Positions 8,764-27,159 of a stretch of 52,634 nt of DNA are shown here, one piece after another (the first letter of the stretch is position 1; each line of letters starts with the position of its first letter). The translations under genes and the position numbers were made by a program. This DNA comes from a virus. The notes beneath the pieces are model-generated. The model saw only the letters and a list, made by a program, of their open reading frames with translations, was not told the DNA's origin and did not search any database. Where the stretch lies: the IMG/VR virus record IMGVR_UViG_3300028831_000041, positions 1 through 52,634 of that record; one strand, given 5' to 3'.

Positions 8764-8779
8764 AGCAGGTTTCGTGCCA
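8764..8779 (-). promoter_or_regulatory. sigma-54-type promoter (groES-like gene)
   Basis: Minus strand TGGCACGAAACCTGCT: a perfect TGGCAC -24 box and CTGC -12 box with GG and GC in the required phase. Predicted start near 8753, giving a leader of about 30 nt to the co-chaperonin ATG. It is the only intergenic stretch here. Confidence 0.75.
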
Positions 8780-8792
8780 GGATATATACATA

Positions 8793-8984
8793 TTAATTTT
8801 TTATTTTGTTTACAGTTTTACGAAACATTACTTCTATTTGATCATCTGGTCTGTTTATTGCTATTATATATACGTTACCACGACAAAATTCTATCCACAC
8901 AGCAGGATTATCTATTACAACATCTGCCGGTATTCCTAAACCAGACATTCTTTCAACTACTTTATCATATAATTCTTTATTCAT
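8793..8984 (-). CDS. hypothetical protein (63 aa)
   Basis: Begins in ATGA overlap with the AAA+ activator gene and ends just before the promoter of the co-chaperonin gene. The sequence has a helix (YDKVVERMSGLGIPADVV) followed by strands (AVWIEFCRGNVYIIAINR), a small alpha/beta protein. Coupled to the activator gene, it could modulate it, but nothing in the sequence proves this. Confidence 0.6.
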   Translation of the reverse strand: MNKELYDKVVERMSGLGIPADVVIDNPAVWIEFCRGNVYIIAINRPDDQIEVMFRKTVNKIKN

Positions 8985-9853
8985 ATAGGTAATACTCCTA
9001 ATATCTTATGTCTCTTTACATGTTGTTCTAGTGAACGAACATTTAGTTTTGTATCAAGACCTTTATCTCGTAGATTATATGTTACATTATTTTTAAGTAC
9101 TTCAAGAAATTCTTTACCACCATTCATTGACAGAATAATTGGTTCTATATCTTCTGGTCTTTCATCTAGAGGTGTAGTATATATCTCGAATGTACTTATC
9201 CTTGCATATAGATCGAGACGAAAGAGATTCTTATCACACAGAGCTTCAAGATCTTTATTGGTTGCACATACAAATCTACAATCTATTTCTTCTTCACTCA
9301 GGGAACCAACCTTCATAATTTTCTTCTCTTGTAATGCTCTAAGAAATTTACCTTGTGAGTGCATGGGTAATTCTCCAACTTCATCAAGAAAAAATGTTCC
9401 ACCTTTAGCAGCCTTCATAAGACCATCTCTATCTCGTTCTGCTCCAGTGAATGATCCTTTAGTAGAACCAAATAGAATAGACTCTACAAGTGCTTCAGGT
9501 AATCCTGCACAATTCTGTGCAACAAATCTTCCCTCTCTATTACCATGAAATGCTCTTGCCAATATTTCTTTTCCTGTTCCAGTAGGACCACTAATAAGTA
9601 CTGGTTCATTTAGTGGTGCCAATTTAGCAACATTTTGTTTCTCCTTAATCATAGATTCATTCACAGTAATGAATCTACTTAGCCAAGCTTCTGTTGTATT
9701 AGAAAAATCTATAATACGACAATCTTCTCGCTTCCAAGGTAATTTATTGTCTTTGATTATTCTATCTATCTGTTGCTTTGCTAACTCAAGAACTTGTGGA
9801 TCTTTTTGATTGAGTGCCAACTCTAAATCTTCTTTACGAATTTCTTGGCTCAT
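8981..9853 (-). CDS. stand-alone sigma-54-activator AAA+ domain (bEBP-like, no receiver or HTH)
   Basis: Central domain of a bacterial enhancer-binding protein: Walker A GPTGTGKE (89-96), sigma-54-contacting loop GSFTGA (133-138; canonical GAFTGA, with the essential F and T kept), and Walker B GGTFFLDEVGE (151-161). CATNKDL is sensor I, FRLDLYARIS (211-220) holds the arginine-finger block and NVRSLE (271-276) is the sensor II region. The family remodels RpoN-RNA polymerase closed complexes using ATP. The first 75 residues are unrelated to response regulators, and the protein ends 14 residues after sensor II with no helix-turn-helix. It would therefore act from solution, as reported for DNA-binding-domain-less FlgR or CtcC. 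Matching -24/-12 sites occur throughout this genome. Confidence 0.9.
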   Translation of the reverse strand: MSQEIRKEDLELALNQKDPQVLELAKQQIDRIIKDNKLPWKREDCRIIDFSNTTEAWLSRFITVNESMIKEKQNVAKLAPLNEPVLISGPTGTGKEILARAFHGNREGRFVAQNCAGLPEALVESILFGSTKGSFTGAERDRDGLMKAAKGGTFFLDEVGELPMHSQGKFLRALQEKKIMKVGSLSEEEIDCRFVCATNKDLEALCDKNLFRLDLYARISTFEIYTTPLDERPEDIEPIILSMNGGKEFLEVLKNNVTYNLRDKGLDTKLNVRSLEQHVKRHKILGVLPI

Positions 9854-10227
9854 AGTTTATTTAATTCATTCATTAGTTTTGTTACTGTTTCTAAATCGCC
9901 TTTAGTTATTGCTTCATATACTCTCTGTTGCAAAATCTCTCTAGGCACTTGGACAGCGCTATCAACTATGATAGACTTGACTGAATCTCTATGACTTTGT
10001 AAAGTCTTTTCTAAATTGGAGCGCCGCTTCTGTTCATTAATCCAACCAATGACTGGATACCAGATACGCCATATATCATGTTGTGATTCTTCTACATGAC
10101 AATAAACATTATTAGTATCTGTTGCTTTAAATGAAGATGCCATTGATACTGGAAGATCAACATACTCGAACAGTTTATTGTATGTGAGAATATTTAGAAG
10201 TTCTTCTATGTCGCAGGTTATATTCAT
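9850..10227 (-). CDS. hypothetical protein (125 aa)
   Basis: Helical protein: an N-terminal segment (CDIEELLNILTYNKLFEYVDLP), a Trp-rich middle (DIWRIWYPVIGW), then a basic helix (NEQKRRSNLEKTLQSHRD) and a C-terminal helical pair. It overlaps the activator gene by 4 nt (ATGA), so the two are translationally coupled and may work together. No family recognised. Confidence 0.6.
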   Translation of the reverse strand: MNITCDIEELLNILTYNKLFEYVDLPVSMASSFKATDTNNVYCHVEESQHDIWRIWYPVIGWINEQKRRSNLEKTLQSHRDSVKSIIVDSAVQVPREILQQRVYEAITKGDLETVTKLMNELNKL

Positions 10228-10427
10228 TTCAGTAAAGACTTAAGATCATTTATGACATTTTTATAAACTGTAGCCGTTATTAAGTATTCTTTTGCTAAAG
10301 ATTCTTCTCCGTTGTTAAGTGCTTTTAAAGTCCATTCTGAATATTTCTTTTGAAGATCTTTATACGAATCTAGCAGACTTTGTACTAAATCATCTTTAGT
10401 TATTCTTAATTGTTTTAGTTTAGCCAT
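10224..10427 (-). CDS. hypothetical protein (67 aa)
   Basis: Helical (VQSLLDSYKDLQKKYSEW and a closing NDLKSLLK). Two in-frame ATGs exist: 10439 inside the helicase gene and 10427 just after its stop. The latter has GGAAAA a few bases upstream and is preferred, but either is possible. Function unknown. Confidence 0.58.
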   Translation of the reverse strand: MAKLKQLRITKDDLVQSLLDSYKDLQKKYSEWTLKALNNGEESLAKEYLITATVYKNVINDLKSLLK

Positions 10428-10428
10428 A

Positions 10429-12612
10429 TTATTTTCCATTTTCTGTTGTATCTATATCACCTAGTATTTCTTCATCTTCTTCTGTGATAGGTTCTTTCTC
10501 CTCATAAGTATATCCTCCCATGATTATACCTTCCCAAGATTCTTTTTGTTGTACTACCTTTGAGAGACACTTTAATTTCATTGAGACAACTTGAGCAACT
10601 TGTTCTTCAATGGTGCCTGCAAAGAATATTAATTGCTGGGTTGTATCCGACAATGATGTAAGTCTTGGAAATCTACCTAGACCTTGCACCATTTCAATAG
10701 CACTCCATGTTGGTGCTATAAATGACTTACGAGGTCTAGTAAGTATTTTTGAAATATCTTCTTCATAAGCATATCCACTTTCTTTATGTCTGACTTTTTC
10801 TTGACTAAATTCGTCTGTGTGATGTAGTGATAATCCAACACCTCCTGCCCTAAACGTATAGAAACAATACAATGAATCTCCTTTTTGAAATCTATCAATT
10901 TCATTTTGTCTTTCTTTTAATGTTTGTATCCCTAATTTAAGTGTTTCATCATCAAATGATTCTTCTACTTTTGCTTCTACATCTTCAAGAGATAACATAT
11001 CCATTGTGATGCCAGCTTCTTCTAGTGCTTTTAGAAGATCATCTGATCCTTCTATTGCTGCTTTTGTTTTTTGTTTTTCTGTTGCTTTTGTTTGTCCACC
11101 TCCCCAGATTATACTTATCTTCTCTCTAGGAATCTTATAATCTTCACAAAGCATCCTAATACATTTTCGTATTGTAACTTTAAAGTTGACTGCACATCCA
11201 GCAGCATATCCATTATTGGTAGCATTTACCATTTGTTCACACAAGTATTTTATACGATCTGGATTAGATTCTGCTGCTATACGATACTGTAACATTGCTA
11301 CCAATATACAGACATTCTTCTGTCCAGCATTAATTAGTCCTTTTGCTTCCTTTGCTTCTGCTTTAGATTTCTTCTTTAGAAATTCTTCAATAGCTTTATC
11401 ATAGAATTCTTTTCCTTCTTTTGTTTGAAAGTCTATAAGAAGAACAGAATTCTTAGCATGAAATTGTGGCTTAACTCCTTTCACACGTACTATGAAATCA
11501 TTCATTACATCCATTAAACGTTCCATTGCTCCAGGAGAATGTTCGTAGGGATTTGCTGGTGATGCTACATATTCTGCGAAAGTCTTCCAATGTTTATTCT
11601 CTAATTCACATTCTATAAGTGTAGCTTTTGTATTTCTGATGCGTGTTGCCACACAAAAGCACTTTGCTTCTGAAACTTTTGTGAATGGTGTAGCACTTAG
11701 AAAAATTTGATAAGTGTTAGGAAGTTCATTGAATGAAGCTGCTATCTTTGCTTGTTGTGTTCCTTCATTCTTCAGAGCTTGACATTCATCCCAAGCTATA
11801 AAACACGGATTAATCATTGGTCGCCAAGACCATTGTGTGTATTCCATGCCATGTTCTATCTTCAGTTTTTCATCTACAAATAGTTCACCAAACTTAGAAC
11901 GTAATTGATCTATATTAATAACAAGAATATCTTGTGGATGCCTTAGACCAAAAAATTTTTCAAATACTCGTTTTGTTTGTTCTACTACACTAGCCTTTGT
12001 TACGTAAATATAGGGCCAAGGTGCAATAGAACCAACTTTAGTATGCCAGTTTGATTCTCTTAGTCTAGCTATGACCGCACCCATTATGAATGTTTTACCA
12101 TAGCCTGCATTAGCTATTAGGAGCTGACCACGTTTATTATCATTTGTAATACCACTTAATAATTCACGGGCTGCTTTATGTTGAAACCAAAATAAGAAAG
12201 ACTTGTCTTTAGAACAGAATGGTAACTTATAATGTTTCTCTAAATTAATTGATGTATCTATTACAGTTGATAAAGGTTCTTCTGTAAAGATTAACTTAGG
12301 TGTTTCTGATTGTTTTAATAAAGCTTTTTCCTCGTCAGTAAGCTTAATAACTGGAGGATTATTCTTTAACCAAATAGAAGTCTCAAGTTCGATCTCCCTA
12401 TCTTTAAGCCATTCTTTTATTTCATTAAAGGAAATCTTCTCCCCATACTCATGTGGAAAATATTTTTGTTTTATCTGCTCATCACTGTAGCCAACTATTC
12501 GTAGTAGATCATAGAAAGTTTGAATCTTTCCAAAAGTGTAAGCAATTTTAATGCGCTGTGAGATTACCTTTAGATGATCTCTTGCTTTTCTATTCTCCTC
12601 TATGTTTGTCAT
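10429..12612 (-). CDS. SF2 (SNF2-type) helicase/ATPase
   Basis: Walker A ANAGYGKT (167-174), a DEAD-box-type WDECQ (about residue 275), motif III SATPFT, and a C-terminal RecA lobe with FYTFRAGGVGLSLHH and a QGLGRFPRL motif VI-like arginine segment followed by GTIEEQVAQ. This is the motif order of SNF2-like SF2 enzymes, which translocate on duplex DNA. The 727-residue length is large for a phage helicase; the N-terminal 140 residues and an insert with VEESFDDETL are family-specific. Likely roles are replication or recombination DNA unwinding, or DNA remodelling. Confidence 0.85.
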   Translation of the reverse strand: MTNIEENRKARDHLKVISQRIKIAYTFGKIQTFYDLLRIVGYSDEQIKQKYFPHEYGEKISFNEIKEWLKDREIELETSIWLKNNPPVIKLTDEEKALLKQSETPKLIFTEEPLSTVIDTSINLEKHYKLPFCSKDKSFLFWFQHKAARELLSGITNDNKRGQLLIANAGYGKTFIMGAVIARLRESNWHTKVGSIAPWPYIYVTKASVVEQTKRVFEKFFGLRHPQDILVINIDQLRSKFGELFVDEKLKIEHGMEYTQWSWRPMINPCFIAWDECQALKNEGTQQAKIAASFNELPNTYQIFLSATPFTKVSEAKCFCVATRIRNTKATLIECELENKHWKTFAEYVASPANPYEHSPGAMERLMDVMNDFIVRVKGVKPQFHAKNSVLLIDFQTKEGKEFYDKAIEEFLKKKSKAEAKEAKGLINAGQKNVCILVAMLQYRIAAESNPDRIKYLCEQMVNATNNGYAAGCAVNFKVTIRKCIRMLCEDYKIPREKISIIWGGGQTKATEKQKTKAAIEGSDDLLKALEEAGITMDMLSLEDVEAKVEESFDDETLKLGIQTLKERQNEIDRFQKGDSLYCFYTFRAGGVGLSLHHTDEFSQEKVRHKESGYAYEEDISKILTRPRKSFIAPTWSAIEMVQGLGRFPRLTSLSDTTQQLIFFAGTIEEQVAQVVSMKLKCLSKVVQQKESWEGIIMGGYTYEEKEPITEEDEEILGDIDTTENGK

Positions 12613-13040
12613 TCAAGTATAATATTAAGTGTTTCACTAATTTTCTTTTTATCACCTTTAGAAATTATTTGAAGTGCAAGATTCCGCGCATCTTCTTTTG
12701 ATAGTCTTAGCATAGATTGTATCTTATGCGCGATGCTATCATAATTGTGATTGAATTTAATGCTGGAAACTTTTGCTTGCTTCCATCTTGCATGATCCTG
12801 TTTCCAATATTGTAGTCGCCATAGACGAGGCTTTTCAAATTTGATAGTCTGTTTCTCATTACCATCAGAATCTAGATCGTGTTCATAATATTGAATATGA
12901 TACGATAGTGGAAATTCTGGAACACATTCTAGTAAAGTTGCTTGCCACAATTCTATTTCGACATGATCATAATCTTTTAGAAGCAATTTTATATAATGAG
13001 CAAAGGGAATTGTTATATTACTTTCATGTTTTCCTTCCAT
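12609..13040 (-). CDS. hypothetical protein (143 aa)
   Basis: The frame is open to 13091, but its first 17 codons are the arm of a strong hairpin (13059-13092), so the ATG at 13040 (MEGKHESNITIPFAHYIKLL) is chosen. The end has a helix-rich region (LSKEDARNLALQIISKGDKKKI) that could be a small helix-turn-helix. It overlaps the helicase start by 4 nt and may be a helicase partner or DNA-binding protein; unproved. Confidence 0.62.
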   Translation of the reverse strand: MEGKHESNITIPFAHYIKLLLKDYDHVEIELWQATLLECVPEFPLSYHIQYYEHDLDSDGNEKQTIKFEKPRLWRLQYWKQDHARWKQAKVSSIKFNHNYDSIAHKIQSMLRLSKEDARNLALQIISKGDKKKISETLNIILE

Positions 13041-13058
13041 AAGATTAGAAAATAAGGA

Positions 13059-13092
13059 AGTGCTCCGTATATATTGTGATATACGGAGCACT
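13059..13092 (-). terminator. strong hairpin, likely terminator of the 13116-13706 unit
   Basis: Perfect 14-bp inverted repeat: AGTGCTCCGTATAT (13059-13072), 6-nt loop, ATATACGGAGCACT (13079-13092). It lies 23 nt beyond the stop of the 196-residue gene. Downstream on the minus strand the sequence is CTTCCTTATTTTC, a weak U-tract, so it may partly attenuate rather than stop transcription into the helicase operon. Confidence 0.7.
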
Positions 13093-13115
13093 TTTGTGCT
13101 ATATTCTAGTAAGTG

Positions 13116-13706
13116 TTATGCTAGAACCTTAACTCCAGCAGCAGTAGTAGGAGTAGGCTTTTCTGGTTCTTCTTCCTTAGTCTTTTGCTTCAGAATAAGC
13201 TGCTCTTGACAATACTTGATCCGCTCAGCAATTTCTTTGAACTTTGCTTTCTGAGCTTCTGGATCAGTAATAGTTCCAGAAAGAATAATGTTCTTGAATT
13301 CTTCCTGAAGATTACTAAGTTCTTCTCGCAATGATGCCATCGTTTCACCGCGTGCACTGAAGTTAGCAAGACCATCAAGGAAATCCTTAACCGAAAATGC
13401 CTTAGTAGGATCAGTCTGCTTCTCATCAATACTGGACTTAGTGATATTAACACTAGTCTGTGCTACCTTCTGATATGCCAGTTCTAGCACTTGATCAAGA
13501 CCAATCCAAGCAAGGAATTTTTGTTTTCCTTCCTCATCTTTTGGTTTGATAGGCTTCAATGCGAATCTATCAGGAGAATCCTTTTCCAATTTTCTAGTAG
13601 AACTGGCTTCACATGGCCATTCAATTCCATTCCTTGTAGAGATTACACTATCTGGAATGATTGCCTCGATTTTCTTTCCGTCAATTTCTTCGATTGTTTT
13701 TGGCAT
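13116..13706 (-). CDS. hypothetical protein, own sigma-54 promoter (196 aa)
   Basis: A soluble protein with a charged N-terminal third, a coiled coil near residues 120-170 (ASLREELSNLQEEFKN; KAKFKEIAERIKYCQEQL) and a Pro/Thr-rich tail (EKPTPTTAAG). By eye its codons are richer in C/G at third positions than neighbouring genes, as in highly expressed phage proteins. It sits alone between a sigma-54-type promoter at 13864 and the hairpin at 13059, so it is probably an abundant product. No family recognised. Confidence 0.75.
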   Translation of the reverse strand: MPKTIEEIDGKKIEAIIPDSVISTRNGIEWPCEASSTRKLEKDSPDRFALKPIKPKDEEGKQKFLAWIGLDQVLELAYQKVAQTSVNITKSSIDEKQTDPTKAFSVKDFLDGLANFSARGETMASLREELSNLQEEFKNIILSGTITDPEAQKAKFKEIAERIKYCQEQLILKQKTKEEEPEKPTPTTAAGVKVLA

Positions 13707-13800
13707 ATAACTGTTTCTATCTTCTCTAATGGTTTGTTTGGTTTGTTATTAATTCAAAAGCGCCCATTAGAATACACTTTATGAATTAACTTTTCTAGGA

Positions 13801-13819
13801 CACAACTAGACAAGTTGTG
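13801..13819 (-). promoter_or_regulatory. leader hairpin
   Basis: CACAACT/AGTTGTG 7-bp inverted repeat with a 5-nt loop in the leader of the 13116-13706 gene, about 35-50 nt after the predicted transcription start. It may stabilise the mRNA 5-prime end or influence translation. Confidence 0.45.
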
Positions 13820-13862
13820 ACTTAAAATTCTTCTGTGAAAGGAACATCTGGTATATAGTCAT

Positions 13863-13878
13863 AGCATGGAACGTGCCA
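13863..13878 (-). promoter_or_regulatory. sigma-54-type promoter
   Basis: Minus strand TGGCACGTTCCATGCT: consensus -24 box, TGC -12 box, correct phase between GG and GC. Predicted start near 13852 and a leader of about 146 nt to the ATG at 13706. It lies immediately after the stop of the 39-residue gene. Confidence 0.75.
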
Positions 13879-13884
13879 ATGTTA

Positions 13885-14004
13885 TTATTTACAATGATGA
13901 AAACTCAGGTGCAGGGCCATCAATTTCCATCTAATACCTCCTAAGTATTTCTTTCTTGGTTTCCACTTACAAAATGGGCATTTAATTTTTATTCTGGTTT
14001 TCAT
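13885..14004 (-). CDS. small CxxC/His protein (39 aa)
   Basis: ATG at 14004-14002 overlaps the upstream stop as ATGA. The product has CPFC and a closing HLSFHHC, separated by about 25 residues, resembling a degenerate single zinc finger, in a basic background (KWKPRKKY). A DNA- or protein-binding finger is plausible. Ends 7 nt before the sigma-54-type promoter. Confidence 0.55.
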   Translation of the reverse strand: MKTRIKIKCPFCKWKPRKKYLGGIRWKLMALHLSFHHCK

Positions 14005-14228
14005 CCTCTTGTTGCTGTTGCAACTGAAAAGTGTTTCATCTTGGATGAACGCACTCCAGATATTGTTATTATATTATTTTTGTCATCTAAACCTACTATA
14101 GAAGCATAATCTTCACCAAAGAAATCAAGAAGCTTCCTAACTTCTATACGTGCTTCTCTTATTGGCATCTTCAACAGTATTTCCTCATTGGGATTCTTAA
14201 ATCTTACTAGATGTTTTGTTGCTTTCAT
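14001..14228 (-). CDS. hypothetical protein (75 aa)
   Basis: Basic N-terminus (MKATKHLVRFKNPNEEI), a helix (PIREARIEVRKLLDFFG) and a strand pair (IVGLDDKNNIITISG) form a compact alpha/beta protein. Overlaps both neighbours. Function unknown. Confidence 0.58.
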   Translation of the reverse strand: MKATKHLVRFKNPNEEILLKMPIREARIEVRKLLDFFGEDYASIVGLDDKNNIITISGVRSSKMKHFSVATATRG

Positions 14229-14409
14229 TATATTGTTCTGGTAATTTATCTATGTATCCTTCTCTTAGAAGAAATTCCCAACATTCTTTTTCAGAATTTA
14301 ATGCTATTAGAGCATTATTAAAAATACATTTTTCATTAGGTGGTTCTATTGCAAACCAATATTTATAACAATGATCATATTCTATCGTGAATGGTTTAAG
14401 TGTTTTCAT
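14197..14409 (-). CDS. hypothetical protein (70 aa)
   Basis: Strand-rich N-terminus (FTIEYDHCYKYWFAIEPP) and a helical C-terminal half (SEKECWEFLLREGYIDKL). It overlaps the upstream gene by 4 nt and the downstream gene by 32 nt. No family recognised. Confidence 0.55.
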   Translation of the reverse strand: MKTLKPFTIEYDHCYKYWFAIEPPNEKCIFNNALIALNSEKECWEFLLREGYIDKLPEQYNESNKTSSKI

Positions 14410-14588
14410 TTGTATAAATCTCTATTTGTTTTTATATGCTTAATAACACGCTTCATATGCTTGACTGCCTCAGAGATTGTCATTTTATTACCAGTATATC
14501 TATTCCAATGGATATTATAGTTCAGGAGAACTCTTCTAAAACACATGGTTAGTTCTTGTCTTATCCACAACCATTTAGAAGTTTTCAT
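14406..14588 (-). CDS. hypothetical protein (60 aa)
   Basis: Basic, with Trp and His in the N-terminal half and a helix MTISEAVKHMKRVIKHIKTN at the end. Overlaps neighbours by 4 and 14 nt. The internal MTISEAVKH segment could be a minimal DNA-binding helix, but this is not established. Confidence 0.5.
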   Translation of the reverse strand: MKTSKWLWIRQELTMCFRRVLLNYNIHWNRYTGNKMTISEAVKHMKRVIKHIKTNRDLYK

Positions 14589-14823
14589 AAGGTGAATCTA
14601 TTTTTATTCTACCAAGTTTAATATTCTCAGCATATCTTCTTTCTGTATAGGATTGCAATTTACAAAGAAGCTGCTGTAATTCAAAGTATCTTTTATCTCC
14701 CGGAACAATATCAAGCAGTTTCATTATCTGTTCTTTGGTTTTCACGCATCCTCTATTTGCTTCATAGTATTTGTCTTTCATAAAGATTGTACGGACTGAG
14801 TCGCTAAAGCTCCTGCTGTTCAA
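14575..14823 (-). CDS. hypothetical protein (82 aa)
   Basis: Helical protein with a KTKEQIMKLLDIVPGDKRYFELQQLLCKLQSY core. It overlaps the preceding gene by 20 nt. One of a run of small uncharacterised genes between the AAA+ module and the 13-kb control region. Confidence 0.55.
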   Translation of the reverse strand: MNSRSFSDSVRTIFMKDKYYEANRGCVKTKEQIMKLLDIVPGDKRYFELQQLLCKLQSYTERRYAENIKLGRIKIDSPYENF

Positions 14824-16325: not shown

Positions 16326-17600
16326 TCAAATGGAAAACTTTCCGCAATTCTGGAGTATATTAGCCTTCACATCATTGTCAATAAGTTGAAAGATACTTTT
16401 CTCAGCAATCTGTTCAGCAGTAGATTTACCTTGTTTAATAAAGGCTGCTCCACGTCTTATTGCTCGTGTTGTTATGTAAATTGTTCCTGCACAATATTCA
16501 TTACAATATTGTCGCACTCTATGACAATATGTTGACCATTCTATATTACCTGTCATCTGTATTGAAATATCGTGCTCAATGTGTTCATCATAGAAGATCT
16601 CATGCATCGTAAATCTATTGAGCGTAGATGCATCAATCTTATTTCGTATAAAGCCACGTGTACTACCAGTGCCCTTTGTATTATCTGCAACTACAAGATA
16701 GAAATCCTTGTGACGCTCAATGGTTTCATTATTTCCAAACGTGTAGAACTTATTTTCAAGAGCATTACAAGCTCCAGTAATTACCATTGCATCACAAGCA
16801 CAAATTTCATCAATACACAATAGTCCACCATCTTTGTAAGCTTTATATGCAAGTCCAGGTATGAAACTTCCAGTAGCAATATTATTATAGCCAACAATCT
16901 TTCCTTCTGTAACTGTTGGTCCACCTTGAACTGGATACAACGGAACATTTAGTGCTTGTGCAAGATGCTCAAACATCATTGTTTTACCACAACCTGGCGC
17001 TCCATATAGGTAAAGAAATTCAGAATAGCCATTGCTGTTCCGTGCAGTAAGATCATTTACTATCTCAGGGACTTGATAATGATGCCTAGTTAGTGTAATC
17101 TTTTGTTCCTCAGAATCATACTTATGATTAACTATGAGAATCTCAACACGTTTCTTGGTTAATTGATCTCGAAGATCAACCAGTTCATTCTCGCGTTCTG
17201 AGATAGTATTGACTAACTTCTGATTCTCAAGATTTTCATTATTTAGTTTATTCTGAAGCTGATCTAGTTCATTCTTATATAGTTGTTCTAATTCTGAATC
17301 AAAAGCTTTATTTATAGTTTCTTGTGCAGGTTTAATTTCAGCATCCTGATTAATACAAAGTTCAAGAGCTGTTAAGACTTTACTATAATTATGAATTTTT
17401 GTAAGTATGTCAATGCTGAAATCATTATGATACGTCACTAATGATTTATGATTACTGCCAGCACAAATCTTCTCGATTGTCATTATGCGAGATTCTTCAT
17501 CAAGCTTTTGAATCTCTTTTGACAATCTAACAAATAGACCTGTTATATCAAATTTTGTTTTGGTTTGAGTTCCTGTTACTGAAGGAAATGTCTTGTGCAT
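16326..17600 (-). CDS. CobS/MoxR-like AAA+ ATPase
   Basis: A coiled coil at residues 95-155 precedes the AAA+ core. The core has Walker A GAPGCGKT (200-207), a DGGLLCIDEICACD Walker B near 250-262, VVADNTKGTGS as sensor I and FIRNKIDASTLNRF carrying the arginine finger. CobS/MoxR members remodel or insert metal into partner proteins; phage versions are common but their substrates are unknown. The 16080 and 15190 genes, directly downstream, are probable partners. A sigma-54-type promoter lies about 50-65 nt upstream of the ATG. Confidence 0.85.
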   Translation of the reverse strand: MHKTFPSVTGTQTKTKFDITGLFVRLSKEIQKLDEESRIMTIEKICAGSNHKSLVTYHNDFSIDILTKIHNYSKVLTALELCINQDAEIKPAQETINKAFDSELEQLYKNELDQLQNKLNNENLENQKLVNTISERENELVDLRDQLTKKRVEILIVNHKYDSEEQKITLTRHHYQVPEIVNDLTARNSNGYSEFLYLYGAPGCGKTMMFEHLAQALNVPLYPVQGGPTVTEGKIVGYNNIATGSFIPGLAYKAYKDGGLLCIDEICACDAMVITGACNALENKFYTFGNNETIERHKDFYLVVADNTKGTGSTRGFIRNKIDASTLNRFTMHEIFYDEHIEHDISIQMTGNIEWSTYCHRVRQYCNEYCAGTIYITTRAIRRGAAFIKQGKSTAEQIAEKSIFQLIDNDVKANILQNCGKFSI

Positions 17601-17651: not shown

Positions 17652-17667
17652 AGCAAAAATCGTGCCA
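17652..17667 (-). promoter_or_regulatory. sigma-54-type promoter (CobS-like operon)
   Basis: Minus strand TGGCACGATTTTTGCT is an exact match to TGGCAC-N5-TTGC. Predicted start near 17641, with about 40 nt of leader before the AAA+ ATG. It lies in the only gap (17601-17701) between that gene and its neighbour. Confidence 0.8.
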
Positions 17668-17911: not shown

Positions 17912-17997
17912 TGTGTTTTTCTCCTATTTTCAATCATGCGGATTGTTTACTGCGTTGCATGACTGAAATTAAAATAAATTTCTAATCAATTCATTTG

Positions 17998-18013
17998 TGG
18001 CACAAAATTAGCT
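17998..18013 (+). promoter_or_regulatory. sigma-54-type promoter, plus strand
   Basis: TGGCACAAAATTAGCT: canonical TGGCAC, and TAGC with GC in phase. It fires toward a minus-strand gene, so it could make an antisense or non-coding RNA. Downstream sequence (AGGGTCGTGATATATTC) is copied at the opposed site at 18245. Confidence 0.6.
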
Positions 18014-18141
18014 CAGGGTCGTGATATATTCCCCCCATTTTCGTTTATCCTTATTTTCTATGAATTATTCTCAATATATATTTGATATATATATAGTATA
18101 GGGGAGATTTAATACGTATATATTCCCTCGCGATTTTTTGC

Positions 18142-18157
18142 AGCTAATTCGATGCCA
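18142..18157 (-). promoter_or_regulatory. sigma-54-type promoter, minus strand
   Basis: Minus strand TGGCATCGAATTAGCT: TGGCAT -24 box and TAGC -12 box, correctly spaced. It would start near 18131 and give a leader of about 220 nt to the ATG at 17911. Shares GGCATCGAAT-AGCTG with the site at 18245. Confidence 0.55.
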
Positions 18158-18243
18158 ATTTTTAGGGTCGTGAGGAGAGCTTTTGAGGGTGTGATTTTTG
18201 AAAACGGCCTAACCGAAATTGCCAAGAATATATCAAAACCCTC

Positions 18244-18259
18244 AGCTTATTCGATGCCA
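18244..18259 (-). promoter_or_regulatory. sigma-54-type promoter, minus strand
   Basis: Minus strand TGGCATCGAATAAGCT: TGGCAT and AAGC in the required phase. Its downstream 17 bases (GAGGGTTTTGATATATTC region) copy the plus-strand unit at 17998, so the two face each other across about 200 bp. Confidence 0.55.
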
Positions 18260-18309
18260 AAATTTTGTTTAATCTTTCAAGATTTTGGTGGGGGTTCCTC
18301 GTTTTTTAC

Positions 18310-18564: not shown

Positions 18565-18892
18565 CTTATCAGCTGAATTCTATTACAAGAGTCCTTGCAC
18601 TCATCCAATTTAGTTAGCTCTACGGTTACATCATTCCAATGATGCTTTAACTTCCTCAGAAGCCCTGAGCTTTTTCCTTATTTAACTATTAGATTTACAC
18701 AAGGGCAGTGCGTTACTGCGTTTAATAAGTAAGTGATTGCTATCTCCCTTAGCTTACTAGCTTGCTTGCTTACTTTCGTTAATACAGTGTAAGAACTACT
18801 ATTTCAGCATTAAAATTGTCAAAGAGCTTTACAACGAGAAATTGTCTTGGAGTAGTAGAGTATTTCATCTACTACTCCAAGTATGGTCTGGA
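18565..18892. other. non-coding gap between two single-gene units
   Basis: No reading frame with coding character on either strand. Near its left part an imperfect GCAGT/ACTGC repeat (about 18705-18720) is seen; the right end holds the 18846-18881 terminator hairpin. I saw no tRNA. A minus-strand promoter for the 84-residue gene should lie here but I could not identify one confidently. Confidence 0.5.
18846..18881 (-). terminator. strong hairpin downstream of the 148-aa gene
   Basis: Perfect 14-bp inverted repeat CTTGGAGTAGTAGA/TCTACTACTCCAAG with an 8-nt loop, starting 12 nt beyond the stop codon at 18893. Only a weak U-tract follows on the minus strand. Together with 13059-13092 it is the second long hairpin placed directly after a sigma-54-driven gene. 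Confidence 0.68.
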
Positions 18893-19339
18893 CTACTTAG
18901 CCAAAACTTGTTTGGAAGCCCAGTAGGCACACTCATCAGTGTATTTGACAAGTTGTTCCTCAAGAGCAGGAACATTGCGATCTTCCAGCAATCCTTCCAT
19001 GTATAGTGCATCAATTTGTTGACACACACGGACAAGAGACATACTCTTGGTAGTGATGATTTTACCACCCCCACGGATTGTGAGTCTGCTAAAGCCATCC
19101 TTAGCAGCTTTTCCAACTTTAGACGCCAGTTCAGCACTGGAAGCCATAAGGCGACCAATATCAGAACCATAATCCACGGCACATTTGTGAGCGACTTGTT
19201 TATCAATCCCACAATGAACCATTGTCGAGAAAGCATCAGCTTGGAACCTACCAAGCATACCGGCAAACTTGCCGATAATGATAACTTTAGACGGTTCTAC
19301 TTGAGTTTGTGCAACTGGTGCATTTGTGATTTCTGGCAT
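18893..19339 (-). CDS. hypothetical protein, first gene of leftward block (148 aa)
   Basis: Begins MPEITNAPVAQTQVEPSKVI, then helical and Ala/Gly-rich segments (KFAGMLGRFQADAFS; GRLMASSAELASKVGKAAKD) and a C-terminal ECAYWASKQV helix. AAAGGATAG upstream of the ATG is a good ribosome site. Codons are visibly richer in G+C than the surroundings. A sigma-54-type promoter about 145 nt upstream and a hairpin downstream make this a single-gene, probably abundantly expressed unit. No family recognised. Confidence 0.72.
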   Translation of the reverse strand: MPEITNAPVAQTQVEPSKVIIIGKFAGMLGRFQADAFSTMVHCGIDKQVAHKCAVDYGSDIGRLMASSAELASKVGKAAKDGFSRLTIRGGGKIITTKSMSLVRVCQQIDALYMEGLLEDRNVPALEEQLVKYTDECAYWASKQVLAK

Positions 19340-19492: not shown

Positions 19493-19508
19493 AGCAGATC
19501 AGATGCCA
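19493..19508 (-). promoter_or_regulatory. sigma-54-type promoter (148-aa gene)
   Basis: Minus strand TGGCATCTGATCTGCT: TGGCAT -24 box, CTGC -12 box, correct spacing. Predicted start near 19482, leader about 143 nt. Confidence 0.68.
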
Positions 19509-19909: not shown

Positions 19910-19925
19910 TGGCACAATTCTTGCT
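19910..19925 (+). promoter_or_regulatory. sigma-54-type promoter of the late (rightward) block
   Basis: TGGCACAATTCTTGCT preceded by T, a textbook TTGGCAC-N5-TTGC match. GG at 19911-19912 and GC at 19923-19924 place the start near 19936, next to the first late ATG (19938). Confidence 0.85.
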
Positions 19926-20151: not shown

Positions 20152-20217
20152 TTAAACAAATCGGTTACTTTGCTATTACTCATGTGATTGAGTGCAACAC
20201 AGTATTAAACTTACAAT

Positions 20218-20337: not shown

Positions 20338-20354
20338 CATAGGAGATTATTCCT

Positions 20355-20997: not shown

Positions 20998-22716
20998 ATG
21001 GAAAATCAAGTATCAACACTTATCAAGGAGGTGAGGCTAACTCCATCTTTGGTTGACGCTTCTTCTAATAACAAAGGTAATGCTGAGAAAGATTTTCCAT
21101 CTTCTTTTTTATATGATGGTGATAGAGTAGATAATACTCCTCCGCCAACAGGAGAATATCAGAAGTTCGAGTTTCCTAATCCCTTCATTCTAGTTTGCTT
21201 CTTCGATAAATCAATAGCAGATGGTTATGTGACACTTCATCCTTGGCAACGTGATGTCAATGTAGAACTTGCAGAGGCGAAACCTACATCTAAGAATCCA
21301 TGTAAATACGTTCTTCTTGCTAATAATGGCTCAGGAAAAGATAAATTCATAATAGCACCCTTCTCAGTTTGGTTCACACTAACAAAGATTCGTAGTCGCA
21401 TCATTATTACTACTTCATCTGGTGTTCAACTTACTTCTCAAACAGAGCCATATATTAAAGATCTGTGTGAAAAAGTAAATGCACATTTTGGCCAAGAAGT
21501 CTATCGTATAAGACAACGCTACATTAAGTGCATACTTACTGGTTCAGAAATAAGAATGTTTGCAACTGATGAGAAAGGGAAGGCAGAAGGTTATCATCCA
21601 ATAGATGCACACTCTGAGATGGCAATTATTGTAAATGAAGGAAAGAGCGTAACAGAAGATATACATGAAGCTCTACGAAGATGCACTGGTTTCAATTATT
21701 GGATAGAAGTATCATCTGCTGGAGAACCTAAAGGCTTCCTTTATAAAGCAGTAACAGATCCGCGCTTTGGATTTAAGAACAAAAGAATAACATCATACCA
21801 ATGTCCACATCTCAATAAAAATGAAATAGAAACTGATAAACTTGATCTTGGAGAGCATTCTGCTTTCTTTCGTTCTAAGCATCTATCACTATTCACTTCA
21901 ATAGGCGGACAATCAATCATACCCCTAGAATTAATACAACAACTTTTAGATAATCCTCCAGTTCATCAATTTCAGCATTGGCCAAAAAGAGTGGGTATTG
22001 ATCTTGCTGCTGGTGGTGATGAAAATGTAATTTGTATCACACAAGGCAACTATGTAGTAAAAGAAATCTGGTTTCGTGAAACAGATACAACTGTTGCTGC
22101 TATGCGCATTTTCCAGATACTACATGATGAGAAGATAGATAAAAATAGTGAACATATCTATGCTGATGATGGTGGAATAGGTAGAGGTATCATAGATCAA
22201 GTTAATGCTTTTGGATATAATATCAATCGTGTAATGAATCAATGGGCGGCGCTTGGAGATAAAAAACAATTTGGTAATAGAGGAGCATCTAATTGGTTTC
22301 GTGTGAAACGGATACTAGAGGAAAAACTGTTTGATATTTCAGGACTTTCTAAGATTACGCTAGATCAACTTAGTCAGCGCAATTATAAACAAACTCTAAC
22401 TGGTGGACGAATATTTCTTGAAGCAAAGAAAGAAGCTAAAGCACATGGCAGACTATCACCTGATAGAGCTGATGCATTTATACTTTCCCTAACAGGACTT
22501 ACAGTTGAAGATTTTATGAAGAATGATAACAAAGAAGTAGAGACTGAGGCGCGGCAGCGAGGACAACTTCTACCAACACCTGATGCTGTACTTAATTGGT
22601 ATGAAGATAACGAGACGTACTCCAATTACTCAGACAAGATTTTTGATAGTAAACGTTCCAACGTAAAACGTTCCAACGTAAAACGTTCCCTTAAAGAGAC
22701 GCTCCTCAAAATATAA
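20998..22716 (+). CDS. terL: terminase large subunit
   Basis: Walker A-like LLANNGSGKD (residues 106-115) follows HPWQ, the usual adenine-contact entry of large terminases. The translocase strand RIIITTSSGVQL and an acidic VNEGKSVTEDI region follow. The nuclease lobe starts RVGIDLAAGGDENV (about residue 335) with IYADDGGIGRG and SPDRADAFILSL as its later acidic sites. The 572-residue size is normal. It packages DNA into the procapsid through the portal. The C-terminal tail contains a KRSNV tandem repeat. Confidence 0.92.
   Translation: MENQVSTLIKEVRLTPSLVDASSNNKGNAEKDFPSSFLYDGDRVDNTPPPTGEYQKFEFPNPFILVCFFDKSIADGYVTLHPWQRDVNVELAEAKPTSKNPCKYVLLANNGSGKDKFIIAPFSVWFTLTKIRSRIIITTSSGVQLTSQTEPYIKDLCEKVNAHFGQEVYRIRQRYIKCILTGSEIRMFATDEKGKAEGYHPIDAHSEMAIIVNEGKSVTEDIHEALRRCTGFNYWIEVSSAGEPKGFLYKAVTDPRFGFKNKRITSYQCPHLNKNEIETDKLDLGEHSAFFRSKHLSLFTSIGGQSIIPLELIQQLLDNPPVHQFQHWPKRVGIDLAAGGDENVICITQGNYVVKEIWFRETDTTVAAMRIFQILHDEKIDKNSEHIYADDGGIGRGIIDQVNAFGYNINRVMNQWAALGDKKQFGNRGASNWFRVKRILEEKLFDISGLSKITLDQLSQRNYKQTLTGGRIFLEAKKEAKAHGRLSPDRADAFILSLTGLTVEDFMKNDNKEVETEARQRGQLLPTPDAVLNWYEDNETYSNYSDKIFDSKRSNVKRSNVKRSLKETLLKI
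22651..22689 (+). repeat. 15-bp tandem repeat in terL tail
   Basis: AAACGTTCCAACGTA repeated twice and then 9 bases of a third copy. It encodes KRSNV-KRSNV-KRS. Each unit contains the palindrome AACGTT. Could be a packaging site or protein-length variation; not tested. Confidence 0.7.
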
Positions 22717-22720
22717 ATTT

Positions 22721-22993
22721 ATGCCATACAATGATTCTGTTGGTAGTTCTATTCCAATACTAGTAAATCCAAGCAAGACAGAAGTTCCAGAAGAATGTCT
22801 CAAATATTTTGATGAGCATGTGGAAGGTCTTACAATAAGTCAACTTAGAGCATGTTCTAATTATTTCTCGAATAAAGCCGATGAGTTAGAAGATAAAATG
22901 AGAAAGTCAGTCTCAATGGAAGACTTTGACAATATTAAGAAAGAGCCTGAAGAAAAATATGAGCAGGATAATAAAGAGGTAGAGAATGATTAA
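22721..22993 (+). CDS. hypothetical protein (90 aa)
   Basis: Acidic, with a Cys-containing helix (TISQLRACSNYFSNKADELEDKMRK) and a highly charged tail rich in Glu and Lys. It lies between terL and the portal, where small virion or packaging accessory proteins are common. No family recognised. Confidence 0.6.
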   Translation: MPYNDSVGSSIPILVNPSKTEVPEECLKYFDEHVEGLTISQLRACSNYFSNKADELEDKMRKSVSMEDFDNIKKEPEEKYEQDNKEVEND

Positions 22994-23195
22994 TACAGTA
23001 TTTCTTTGTGATACCTGTGGTAAGCAATTTAATCATGACATATCCACAATCTCAATTAGAGGTAATGATGTTCCATCCCAAGCTTTCCCGAAACAAGTTT
23101 ATTCTACCTTTACAATTTGTATAAAATCTAAAGATAAATCTACCGATAGATTAGATTTTTGTTCACAAGAATGTTTCTCAAAGTATAAGATATAA
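22986..23195 (+). CDS. small zinc-finger-like protein (69 aa)
   Basis: CDTCGKQFNHD at the N-terminus and CSQECFSK near the C-terminus form a CxxC ... CxxxC set, an apparent zinc-ribbon. Its start overlaps the preceding gene by 8 nt and its stop shares one base with the portal ATG. Role unknown. Confidence 0.65.
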   Translation: MINTVFLCDTCGKQFNHDISTISIRGNDVPSQAFPKQVYSTFTICIKSKDKSTDRLDFCSQECFSKYKI

Positions 23196-25078
23196 TGGAA
23201 GCAGCAAATATAGCATCTGATTCTGATGGACTAACAAATAGTCCTCTTGTATCAGCTAATCCTACTGATACACAAGTTGATGAACAGGATAAGTTCTTCG
23301 ATTTTACACAAGCTAGACCACATCTAAGGAGACTTATTGACGATTGGCACACTGAGATAGAAGATACAGAAGTTCGTCGCAAGACAAGGAAAGTTGAAAT
23401 TGATATAGAAGGTCTTAGACAGAAAGGAGATCTTGATGAAGATGAAACGATTATTCCAGTGCGTGTTATTGATTCTAATATTCAGCGTGAGCAGCCTCCT
23501 TATATCAATTATCTTAAGAACTCTCGCAGATTAGCAATCTTTGAATGTCTAGATGATCCTACCAAAGATAATGATCTTCTTGAACAAGACTTTACAAAGA
23601 AGTGTACATATACATCTTGGGAAACACCACACTACAAGTGTCTTGATGGTTCACAAGCACATGGATGGGATGCAATAGAAGTAGTGTATGATGAATCTAA
23701 ACCAGGCAATTTCTCTCTTGAACATATAGGTCATGATAAACTTCTATTCCCTAGATCTGCAATAGATATTCAACAGTGTCCTCGCATTATTAGATGCTAT
23801 GATGTATCTATTCTTCAACTGCGCCTTTGGGTTAAGAAGTATGGGTTTGACCCTATTCAGGTGGAGATGATTCTTGCAAAGAGGCGAAATACACAGAAAG
23901 AAGGAGAGACTGAACGAATCTATAAACTGTATTTCAAGAAGGATGGCATAGTTAATGTGTCTTGGTTCTGTATGACAGATGGTGTTTCTGATTGGTTAAA
24001 GAAACCTGTTACACACTATATAGGTATTGATGATACTCAGACAAGACAACCAAAACCTCTCGATATGTATCCCATATTCATACTACCATATCGTGAGACA
24101 GAAGAACCAAAAGTAGTAGATCATAAAGGTCGTTGTTTTCTTGATGAGTTTAAACAAGAAGCACAAACAGCACTTTGGTCCTCTTTTGTAAATGGAATGA
24201 ATCGCGCTAGTAACATTTATGCGTCTCCATCAACAGAAGATGGAACTGGTGCCTCGCTTAAAGAATTACAGAATGTTACTTTGAGGGGCGGTAGAATACT
24301 TAGTAAGCCAATGAACTTTTGGCATACTGAATATCCAGATCCAGTAGTATTACGTACCCTACAGTATGCAGATGTTGCTAATTCTGAAGAAACAAATCAA
24401 GTTAATTTTGCAGCAATTAATCGTGAAGATTCTCGTAAGACTGCAAAAGAGATAGGAGCAGCAGAGCAACAGCAGCAGCTTCTCAACTCTGTACAGCTTA
24501 CATTATTTTCTACCTTCATACGACAAGTATATTCTCTTGTATGGCTAATAGTACAATCCCAGGCAATGCAACAGAAGATAAAGTTTCTTCTTATTCAAAA
24601 AGCACAGCCAGTCATTAATCCAATTACAGGAACTCCTGTAATAGATCAATCAACTGGACAACCAGCAACACAAATCATTTTTACTAATGATATTGATACC
24701 ATCAAACTAACATATTCTATTAGAGCTGCTGGTGATGTTGATGTTGTTCAGAAGCAAGAAATGATTCAAGCAATGCAACAAGATATGCCTCTTGTGATGC
24801 AAACAGCCCTTAAAGATCAATTTATTCTTGATTATTTCAAACTTAAATATCCTGATAGAGCGGAAAGATACGCAGCAGCACTTCAACAAGGAGCACAAAT
24901 GCAACAACTAATAGGACTTGTACAACAACTCTCAACAACACTAGAAGGTGTACTAAAAGATGCTCCACAACTTGTACAAGAACTTCCAGATAATCAACGG
25001 CAACAGCTTGGTAGTATGTTACAGGAAGCTTCACAGTTGACTGGTGCCGCTAATGGAAAACCTCAGCAAAGACAATGA
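23195..25078 (+). CDS. portal protein
   Basis: 627 residues directly after the terminase region. It has long amphipathic stretches, a GMNRASNIYASPS segment, then NREDSRKTAKEIGAAEQQQQ and SVQLTLFSTFIRQVYSLVW, which resembles the helical stem-wing region of podovirus-type portals. A Gln-rich C-terminal tail follows. Portals form the dodecameric DNA gateway. The call rests on size, order between terminase and scaffold/capsid, and composition rather than one diagnostic motif. Confidence 0.78.
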   Translation: MEAANIASDSDGLTNSPLVSANPTDTQVDEQDKFFDFTQARPHLRRLIDDWHTEIEDTEVRRKTRKVEIDIEGLRQKGDLDEDETIIPVRVIDSNIQREQPPYINYLKNSRRLAIFECLDDPTKDNDLLEQDFTKKCTYTSWETPHYKCLDGSQAHGWDAIEVVYDESKPGNFSLEHIGHDKLLFPRSAIDIQQCPRIIRCYDVSILQLRLWVKKYGFDPIQVEMILAKRRNTQKEGETERIYKLYFKKDGIVNVSWFCMTDGVSDWLKKPVTHYIGIDDTQTRQPKPLDMYPIFILPYRETEEPKVVDHKGRCFLDEFKQEAQTALWSSFVNGMNRASNIYASPSTEDGTGASLKELQNVTLRGGRILSKPMNFWHTEYPDPVVLRTLQYADVANSEETNQVNFAAINREDSRKTAKEIGAAEQQQQLLNSVQLTLFSTFIRQVYSLVWLIVQSQAMQQKIKFLLIQKAQPVINPITGTPVIDQSTGQPATQIIFTNDIDTIKLTYSIRAAGDVDVVQKQEMIQAMQQDMPLVMQTALKDQFILDYFKLKYPDRAERYAAALQQGAQMQQLIGLVQQLSTTLEGVLKDAPQLVQELPDNQRQQLGSMLQEASQLTGAANGKPQQRQ

Positions 25079-25374
25079 ATACAGTTAAAATTTATTCGGA
25101 AGCAATAGGTAGAACTGTAATGACTGAAGGATTACCAGAATCTCCAGCAGAAGATGCTGCTAGAAAGCAAATGCTATTTAATTGGTTACAATCCACACCA
25201 ACACAAGAACTGTTTGAATCACTTAAAACTTCAGCAGATTCTCTGATTGAACAAGCCATTAATTTAGCTATCACTTATCATACTCATAAGACTCATGAAC
25301 AAATTCTATCATGTCTTGTGAGAGCACATGAACTAAAGAATGTAATTAAACAACAGACTAAACAATATGCCTGA
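25075..25374 (+). CDS. hypothetical protein (99 aa)
   Basis: Helical protein (SPAEDAARKQMLFNWLQSTP; LIEQAINLAITYHTH) overlapping the portal stop by 4 nt and the scaffold-like start by 8 nt. It could be an assembly factor of the head; no family recognised. Confidence 0.6.
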   Translation: MNTVKIYSEAIGRTVMTEGLPESPAEDAARKQMLFNWLQSTPTQELFESLKTSADSLIEQAINLAITYHTHKTHEQILSCLVRAHELKNVIKQQTKQYA

Positions 25375-26557
25375 AATCGCGCCACTAACACCAACAATTA
25401 CTAATGATGGAGTAATAATACCTCCAGCACCAGGTCTTAATCTTCCTGAACCTAAACAAGAGACTAAAGTAGTTGAGCAACCAAAAACAGAAGTTAAGAC
25501 AGAAGAACCTACTAAAGATGAACTAATAGATTTCTCAGCATTTGCTGATGCTAAATCATTAGTACCTCAGGAAATCCTAAAGAAACAAAGAGAAGATGAA
25601 GCTGCCAAAAAAGAACTTGAAGCTACTCCTCAAGATAAAGGAACAGAGACAACTACTAAAAGTACAAAGAAAGCAGAACGTGATTATTCTGATCTTGAGC
25701 CAGAAGTTGTTCCTCTATTCAAGAGTATGGCTAATGATACTTTTAATAAGTTAAAGCCACTATATCTTGAGCATAAGAAACTAAAGGCAGACATAACAGC
25801 AAAAGAAGCAGAACTAACACAATCTAAGACTGCTCTTGAAGAAGCTCGTAAAGGTATTACAAAAATTCCTGACAACTATTATGAGAATGAAAATGCCTTC
25901 ATATTAACGCCAGACTTTCAACAAGGTGTGAGAAGGCTTAATGTTGCCAATAGTATTTACTCTCATTGGATGGATCAATTACAGAAAGTAAGAGAAGGTG
26001 CCTCAGATTTTGATATGATAGACTTTGATTCAAAGCAAGGACAATTTGTAGTTACTGGTAAAATTAAGGCTGATGACAAGTCTGAACTAAAGCTAATGTC
26101 ATACGTCAATTTTGCTCAGAATCAACTTACACAAGAACAACAGAATGTTCAAGCTATTCAGAACAGTCATAAAACAAAGTATCAACAGAGTGTAGCATCT
26201 CTGCAACAAATAGATCAACAATTCTTTTCAGGGCTAAATAAAGAGGAGAATAAAAAGATCTATGATCCACTAATAGCTGACACGATTAGTAAATTGCCAA
26301 CAGCAGTACAAAATTCTCCATTAGCTCCAGTTACAGCAAAAGCACTTGTTCTATGCACAGTACTTGCTGGTCTATTACAACAAGCTGCCAACAAAATTAA
26401 TGGGGCGCCTCAGCCTAGTACAAATGGTGACAAGTCTACCAATCGTCAAATACAGCCAAGCGCGGCAGAGATTGCAGGTGGTGGGGATGGAAAGTCTAAC
26501 AAAGATACTGATAGTTTTACAATAGATGATTTTAAACGAGTTAAGGAAGGATATTGA
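25367..26557 (+). CDS. scaffold-like capsid assembly protein
   Basis: 396 residues immediately before the capsid module. The N-terminus is Pro-rich and disordered (PAPGLNLPEPKQETKVVEQ). A long, highly charged helical middle contains coiled-coil-type runs (KLKADITAKEAELTQSKTAL) and the C-terminal region is Gln/Asn-rich with a TIDDFKRVKEG helix that could bind the capsid. This is the usual profile of scaffolding proteins. Assigned by position and composition. Confidence 0.65.
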   Translation: MPEIAPLTPTITNDGVIIPPAPGLNLPEPKQETKVVEQPKTEVKTEEPTKDELIDFSAFADAKSLVPQEILKKQREDEAAKKELEATPQDKGTETTTKSTKKAERDYSDLEPEVVPLFKSMANDTFNKLKPLYLEHKKLKADITAKEAELTQSKTALEEARKGITKIPDNYYENENAFILTPDFQQGVRRLNVANSIYSHWMDQLQKVREGASDFDMIDFDSKQGQFVVTGKIKADDKSELKLMSYVNFAQNQLTQEQQNVQAIQNSHKTKYQQSVASLQQIDQQFFSGLNKEENKKIYDPLIADTISKLPTAVQNSPLAPVTAKALVLCTVLAGLLQQAANKINGAPQPSTNGDKSTNRQIQPSAAEIAGGGDGKSNKDTDSFTIDDFKRVKEGY

Positions 26558-26559
26558 TT

Positions 26560-27141
26560 ATGTATCTAATATTTGATACTGAGACAAGTAATCTTCCTAA
26601 ATCTGGTCAATCTATAAAAGATCCATTTTGTGCGCGTATTATTCAGATTGCAGCAATTCTTCTTGATGATAAATTTGAAGAGAAATCGTGCTTCAAGTCT
26701 CTTATACAATTATCAAATCATTATCAAATTTCAGCTGGAGCATTTGATGCACACGGTATAAATCATGAAATGTGTCAAAAATTTGGTATTCCAATAGAAG
26801 CTGCTCTTTGTGTATTTGATTCAATGGCAGTTCTCTCTAAAGTACAAGTTGCTCACAATTTTCATTTTGATTCAAGAATGTTAGAATTTGAAGTTACTAA
26901 TATTCTTGATGGAATGAATTCAACTCTTACAAATCCATTTTGTACTATGTTAGCTTCTACTCCACATTGCAAATTGCCTGGTAGAAATGGACAACAATAT
27001 AAGTGGCCTAAGTTGAGTGAAGCCTATAAGTTTTTTGTTGGTGAAGATTTAGTTGACGCGCATGATGCCCTGAATGATGTGCGTGCAACAGCTAAAGTAT
27101 TTCGTCATTTGGTAGAGAAGGGTTTAGTAACTCTTAACTGA
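26560..27141 (+). CDS. DEDDh 3'-5' exonuclease (DnaQ-like)
   Basis: ATG at 26560 with AAGGAAGGA upstream. ExoI FDTET (D6, E8), ExoII VAHNFHFDSRM and ExoIII HDALNDVRATAKVF (H-x4-D) make a complete DEDDh set, with AHGI in between. It degrades DNA from the 3' end or proofreads. It sits unusually between scaffold and capsid genes. The late sigma-54-type site follows its stop codon directly. Confidence 0.85.
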   Translation: MYLIFDTETSNLPKSGQSIKDPFCARIIQIAAILLDDKFEEKSCFKSLIQLSNHYQISAGAFDAHGINHEMCQKFGIPIEAALCVFDSMAVLSKVQVAHNFHFDSRMLEFEVTNILDGMNSTLTNPFCTMLASTPHCKLPGRNGQQYKWPKLSEAYKFFVGEDLVDAHDALNDVRATAKVFRHLVEKGLVTLN

Positions 27142-27143
27142 GT

Positions 27144-27159
27144 TGGCACGATTTAAGCT
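27144..27159 (+). promoter_or_regulatory. sigma-54-type promoter (capsid unit)
   Basis: TGGCACGATTTAAGCT: exact TGGCACG -24 box, GC in phase at the -12 box (AAGC rather than TTGC). It lies 3 nt beyond the exonuclease stop. Predicted start near 27170 gives a 126-nt capsid leader. Confidence 0.75.

Follow-up and report, generated by a model that had tools for sequence, protein, structure and literature searches.

The 52,634-base IMG/VR virus record IMGVR_UViG_3300028831_000041 (hereafter the window, meaning the whole stretch analysed) carries a set of -24/-12, or sigma-54-type, promoter sites together with a gene for a sigma-54 activator of the bacterial enhancer-binding protein (bEBP) type. 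Very probably, this phage bEBP, which has no DNA-binding domain, switches on the phage sigma-54 promoters through the RpoN of the host. What the analysis shows directly is where the sites lie, how far they exceed chance and how well they are conserved, along with the activator's sequence signatures and the fold predicted for it. An earlier note on this DNA had proposed nine sigma-54 promoters and overlooked the bEBP gene at 8981-9853, which, judged by its sequence, would supply most of what the promoter matches lack to form a regulatory circuit.

Sigma-54-type promoter sites in the window

Searching the window for TGGCAY-N7-GCT returned exactly 9 matches, against a mean of 0.53 and a maximum of 2 in 100 dinucleotide shuffles, and recovered every position named in the earlier note. 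Without the final T the pattern matched 11 times (shuffles: mean 1.53, maximum 6), and the two shuffle means bear out the earlier estimate of about one match by chance. Both additional GC-only matches fall inside coding sequences; the one at 35305 (+) had been noticed before, while a second, at 28730-28744 (-), had escaped attention. Once open reading frames (ORFs) judged spurious or overlapping are dropped, non-coding DNA makes up 8.5% of the window. All 9 TGGCAY-N7-GCT sites lie within that fraction, as had been claimed, and so do 9 of the 11 looser matches, where about 0.06 would be expected (binomial P ~1e-8). Scored with a consensus-weighted sigma-54 matrix of our own, four sites exceeded 18 bits (17652, the best in the window, then 8764, 19910 and 13863), followed by 17998, 27144 and 19493; seven of the nine reached at least 14.6 bits, and 18142 and 18244 stayed below 14 bits.

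8764..8779, minus strand: class C site, TGGCACGAAACCTGCT; just past the bEBP gene and 42 nt ahead of the GroES-like and replication genes
13863..13878, minus strand: class D site, TGGCACGTTCCATGCT; ahead of gene 13116-13706 and the helicase-bEBP gene block
17652..17667, minus strand: class F site, TGGCACGATTTTTGCT; 53 nt ahead of the CobS-like AAA+ gene 16326-17600
19493..19508, minus strand: class H site, TGGCATCTGATCTGCT; ~155 nt ahead of gene 18893-19339, divergent from the late block
19910..19925, plus strand: class B site, TGGCACAATTCTTGCT; ahead of the late block (small-terminase-like 20355, large terminase 20998 onwards)
27144..27159, plus strand: class A site, TGGCACGATTTAAGCT; 138 nt ahead of the major capsid gene
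17998..18013, plus strand: weaker -24/-12-like site, AGC at -12; in an inverted-repeat arm
18142..18157, minus strand: weaker -24/-12-like site, AGC at -12; below 14 bits
18244..18259, minus strand: weaker -24/-12-like site, AGC at -12; in the other inverted-repeat arm

We regard six sites as firm (8764, 13863, 17652, 19493, 19910 and 27144) and three, at 17998, 18142 and 18244, as weaker. For each of the six, relatives have a site in the corresponding location; the other three carry AGC in place of TGC at -12, are linked by repeats and are not conserved among the compared relatives, with no clear counterpart of site 17998 found there. Two of them occupy the arms (17995-18047 and 18210-18262, 162 nt apart) of an imperfect 53-nt inverted repeat in a non-coding stretch with leftward genes on one side and rightward genes on the other, and site 18142 shares a 23-nt direct repeat with 18243-18265, which includes site 18244. 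Because the three are tied together by these inverted and direct repeats, they are not independent sites. They may be promoters of small transcripts, another kind of element, or decayed copies.

A phage-encoded sigma-54 activator reduced to its AAA+ core

The activator gene lies about 200 nt from site 8764.

8981..9853, minus strand: sigma-54 activator (bEBP) AAA+ core, 290 aa; PF00158 Sigma54_activat, 3.2e-54

Its sequence matches the AAA+ domains of NtrC, FleQ, NtrC4 and PspF in the PDB, and the PF00158 core contains Walker A and B motifs, a GSFTGA loop, two arginine fingers and sensor II, as expected of a sigma-54 activator. The loop differs by an A-to-S change from the canonical GAFTGA, a variant that is functional in LevR (PMC3162934). 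The predicted structure (predicted local distance difference test score, pLDDT, 94) matches the AAA+ domains of sigma-54 activators with E ~1e-21; compared with named viral proteins, the fold found only generic AAA+ matches, at 11-19% identity and a best E of ~2e-9.

We detected no receiver, GAF or PAS domain and no helix-turn-helix (HTH) in the protein. It ends 17 residues past sensor II (residue 273 of 290), and so has no DNA-binding domain. A C-terminal DNA-binding domain is typical of bEBPs, not required; group 5 bEBPs and FleT do without it. The phage activators share the bare architecture of FleT, with neither a regulatory nor a DNA-binding domain.

Predicted promoter positions are conserved in related viral genomes

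Searching with the capsid-position protein led to eight viral contigs at 71-76% identity, and the activator is present in all six near-full-length relatives, at 48-57% identity. With site classes assigned by inspecting gene order, classes A to D proved conserved in synteny in every genome that covers them. Class A is kept in 8 of 8 genomes and in the fragment L007, and the distance from the site to the capsid gene that follows it is about 140-155 nt throughout; class B, ahead of the late block, is likewise kept in 8 of 8. Class C, which lies past the activator gene and ahead of the GroES and replication genes, and class D, ahead of the block running from gene 13116 through the helicase to the activator, are each kept in 7 of 7. 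Roughly corresponding class F sites occur in five relatives and corresponding class H sites in four; a further class, E, stands directly ahead of the activator gene in G005, G006 and G008. The flanks of the sites are only ~28-37% identical within classes (ungapped; mostly 30-37%), or 47% upstream for class E with its three genomes. Among 44 sites, for which the TGGCA, Y and GC positions defined the pattern, T stands at the unspecified position ahead of GC in 41 and directly follows GC in all 44.

The six firm sites are thus non-coding, placed ahead of genes and conserved in relatives, as -24/-12 promoters should be. The earlier sigma-54 promoter reading gains support from their spacing, consensus, non-coding placement, orientation to downstream genes and conservation, and it survived the comparison with coding and shuffled DNA (by matrix, shuffles and non-coding placement), in which an equal density would have spoken against it.

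Some elements near the sites vary within the lineage. A further sigma-54-like site precedes the g40023 orthologue in three relatives only (G001 17569 (+), G002 34691 (+) and G003 24450 (+)), which suggests gain or loss of promoters. In G005, G006 and G008 the palindrome TTCTCA-N4-TGAGAA lies at near-fixed distances upstream of several sites (~29 nt for classes C, D and E, 4 nt for class A), and in G002 and G003 TATACT-N5-AGTATA takes that upstream position (loci L016-L033 for all five genomes); neither palindrome occurs in the window. Of 115 sites in the wider set of loci described below, 41 have a perfect palindrome with 6-bp arms upstream and 21 have one downstream. A separate protein that recruits or represses might bind at the upstream palindromes.

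Spacing and linkage to the activator gene across wider loci

The spacing between the two promoter elements provides an internal control. Counted over the eight genomes with k from 0 to 15, TGGCAY-Nk-TGC peaks at k=6 with 60 matches, every other spacer giving 3-13; for TGGCAY-Nk-TTGCT the peak is 31 matches at k=5, against 0-3 elsewhere. The same peaks appear in 52 further non-redundant viral loci carrying a bEBP (118 versus 5-20 for TGC, 52 versus 0-3 for TTGCT), and the 80 best loci contain 149 strict sites compared with 7.75 in shuffles. Pairs of TGGC and GC elements with the fixed spacing of sigma-54 promoters accordingly exceed chance in the window, its relatives and the wider loci. No spacing peak was seen in 11 control phage records (333 kb, varied in G+C; no bEBP is known in ten of them, and the eleventh has a divergent bEBP-like ORF), where the TGC pattern gave 6 versus 2-7 and the TTGCT pattern 0. 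The bEBP stop codon is followed by a site within 500 nt in 41 of 51 loci (4% expected) and within 150 nt in 35 of these, and 108 sites in the wider loci are on the activator strand, with 15 on the opposite one. The absence of a peak in the controls, taken with this linkage, indicates a matched activator-promoter pair. From the sequences, the scheme appears to recur across many uncultured phages.

These data bear on who fires the promoters. The sites could be sigma-54 promoters fired by host activators, for example those responding to nutrient or envelope stress, with the phage bEBP mainly reprogramming host sigma-54 genes. A bEBP without a DNA-binding domain could serve host promoters too, a role compatible with its acting on the phage's own. 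We nonetheless find host activation unlikely as the main explanation, given that control phages without this bEBP show no spacing peak and that in most loci a site follows closely on the bEBP gene. It is very unlikely that the conserved sites are operators of another DNA-binding protein that resemble -24/-12 elements by coincidence: other palindromic elements do lie near sites in relatives, yet the motif is asymmetric, points to the downstream gene, fits the sigma-54 consensus at both elements, keeps one exact spacing and co-occurs with a sigma-54 activator gene.

An activator family with a shared bare architecture

A single-sequence activator scan of viral contigs gave no match; an alignment query was required, and with it 225 stretches in viral contigs were found to encode a relative, the lower-ranked of which may include bacterial DNA. 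We sampled 56 phage activators from this family. All 56 match PF00158, and no HTH or receiver family was detected among them. The F-T-G core of the GAFTGA loop is nearly invariant and both arginine fingers are invariant; the second loop residue is S in 32, A in 23 and T in 1, and 55 of the 56 have 14-23 residues after sensor II. All 56 also match PHROG 7998, annotated as 'unknown function', for which we propose, on these sequence features, a sigma-54 activator function. In a tree the phage activators split from 11 bacterial bEBPs with branch support 98/98; in the same tree one bacterial row, very divergent, groups with a phage row that is divergent too, and with this small bacterial sample a single origin is not shown.

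Phages commonly encode MoxR- or CobS-like ATPases, one of them in this window, and the activator has weak secondary matches to clamp-loader and MoxR-type families. That it is such an ATPase and no transcription activator is nevertheless most improbable: PF00158 is by far the best family, the loop core and arginine fingers are preserved throughout the sample, and the best fold matches are bEBPs, with those to named viral AAA+ proteins much weaker.

In the named-phage collection, most bEBP matches look like bacterial DNA in contaminated assemblies and were set aside. The gut phage MT121960 has a bEBP-like ORF, yet no sites in the 38.7 kb read.

A model for activation of the phage promoters

If the phage activator fires the phage promoters, host RNA polymerase with sigma-54 would wait in closed complexes at the -24/-12 sites until the product of 8981-9853 forms a ring, contacts sigma-54 through its GSFTGA loop and burns ATP to open the promoter. 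With the promoters open, the genes for the head, for packaging, for the chaperone and for replication would be expressed. Having no receiver and no DNA-binding domain, the activator probably works on all phage promoters from solution, as FlgR is reported to do, or with the help of a separate DNA-bound partner, and its appearance would itself be the switch. Positive feedback is possible, since the activator gene lies downstream of a conserved sigma-54 site: it stands behind the class D site, and behind class E in G005, G006 and G008. We infer sigma-54 binding, activation, its timing, the feedback and rpoN in the host from the sites and the activator together.

Several points weigh against this model. 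A terminator-like hairpin with a 15-bp stem (13058-13093, minus strand) stands between gene 13116-13706 and the helicase-bEBP block and may damp the class D feedback route in the window. The phage has no rpoN of its own in the window. Synthesis of the first activator is not explained: an E. coli-like sigma-70 scan of the window gave 3 strong matches versus 3.3 expected. This lack of excess may mean that the host's consensus diverges from that of E. coli, that host activators start sigma-54 transcription, or that the scan overlooked promoters. Finally, three of the nine window sites are weak. For one or more of these three a chance origin is possible; it is refuted for the six conserved sites. 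As an account of the sites in general, chance has next to no standing: single matches do arise in coding sequence (28730, 35305) and in shuffles, and against this stand the 9 sites found in non-coding DNA where ~0.06 were expected, their positions kept across genomes with diverged flanks and, decisively, the spacing control.

A broader version of activation by the phage bEBP seems to us evenly balanced between right and wrong. Sigma-54 would be the principal transcription system of the lineage, with most middle and late operons behind -24/-12 promoters, the bare activator firing them without enhancer binding (or via a DNA-bound partner at the upstream palindromes) in a self-reinforcing loop, and sigma-70 marginal. 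If so, phage growth would depend on the host's pool of sigma-54 polymerase.

Genes behind the sites and other features of the window

8433..8723, minus strand: GroES-like (Cpn10) gene; PF00166, 3.5e-6; downstream of site C
10429..12612, minus strand: helicase gene; PHROG helicase families and ResIII; shares a block with the bEBP gene
13116..13706, minus strand: first gene after site D; no family match; relatives in G005 and G006
16326..17600, minus strand: CobS-like AAA+ gene; phrog_249, 6.3e-41, and PF07728; after site F
20998..22716, plus strand: large terminase gene; tblastn to annotated terminases, best ~31% (Akkermansia phages)
27296..28630, plus strand: inferred major capsid gene; position and conservation (71-76% identity in relatives); after site A

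Adjacent genes in the helicase-bEBP block overlap by a few bases. The capsid gene has no family match, and its name is inferred. Between promoter A and this gene, the leader (27159-27295) contains a short element, about CTTGCTTCTACG, that recurs in varying form in relatives. Directly past gene 18893-19339 lies a perfect hairpin with 14-bp arms (18846-18881; CTTGGAGTAGTAGA / TCTACTACTCCAAG), probably its terminator. An Rfam scan found no RNA family.

Farther along, an Asn/Thr-rich gene block at 29210-34560 has no detectable relatives in most of the compared genomes and possibly holds host-recognition genes. DNA polymerase A is seemingly split into exonuclease-side and polymerase-side ORFs (1351-2919 and 50881-51924, minus strand), the polymerase assignment of the second having been made by eye. 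If the contig ends adjoin, a 131-aa ORF (51909-52304) lies between the two parts, and the same order is found in relatives.

Relation to known systems and implications

Known late-gene switches of phages include phage sigma factors, antiterminators, and activators of the P2 Ogr or Mu C type. Like these, the proposed circuit would have late genes switched on by a phage protein that works through the RNA polymerase of the host. Those switches use or replace the sigma-70 class, whereas here the target would be sigma-54 and the activator an ATP-driven remodeller. To our knowledge, the known phage transcription switches all act via sigma-70, phage sigma factors, antitermination or phage polymerases.

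Cellular bEBPs offer partial parallels. According to a 2020 review, FleT of Rhodobacter sphaeroides was alone among known bEBPs in having neither a regulatory nor a DNA-binding domain (PMC7175178). The likeness lies in this bare AAA+ architecture; FleT is a cellular flagellar regulator, whereas the present protein is encoded by phages that also carry a series of sigma-54 sites. Two group 5 bEBPs, Helicobacter FlgR and Chlamydia CtcC, also have no DNA-binding domain (PMC7175178, PMC3162934), and FlgR is reported, in a reference cited in PMC3162934, to activate without enhancers. Both keep a receiver domain under a sensor kinase, which the phage protein does not have. PspF shares the missing receiver, the AAA+ core with GAFTGA and a similar fold, but has an HTH and binds upstream sites, whereas the phage protein has no HTH.

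We found no phage-encoded bEBP regulon in the open-licence PMC literature (preprints not included), which is weak evidence of absence. A T7-like Pectobacterium phage is reported to have a weak HHpred match to sigma-54 itself (PMC7693777), which is different from a phage-encoded activator. Sigma-54 promoters and bEBPs are each familiar as components; the literature searched yielded no viral regulon that combines them under a bare activator of the virus's own.

Comparison with named phages by megablast and capsid tblastn gave no match, and the capsid alignment found no relative in bacterial genomes. The terminase found one contig of a metagenome-assembled genome (MAG) there, at 38% a more distant relative, with its own bare bEBP; it is binned in a Deltaproteobacteria MAG with rpoN, and binning is not proof of host.

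If activation by the phage bEBP is borne out, the pairing of a phage-borne, ATP-driven sigma-54 activator with promoters of the virus that match it would add a new class to the circuits by which viruses control their genes, and PHROG 7998 would gain a function, as would many uncultured phages. These naturally minimal bEBPs would lend themselves to the study of promoter opening without enhancers. The phages would not grow in hosts without rpoN, which would narrow their possible hosts.

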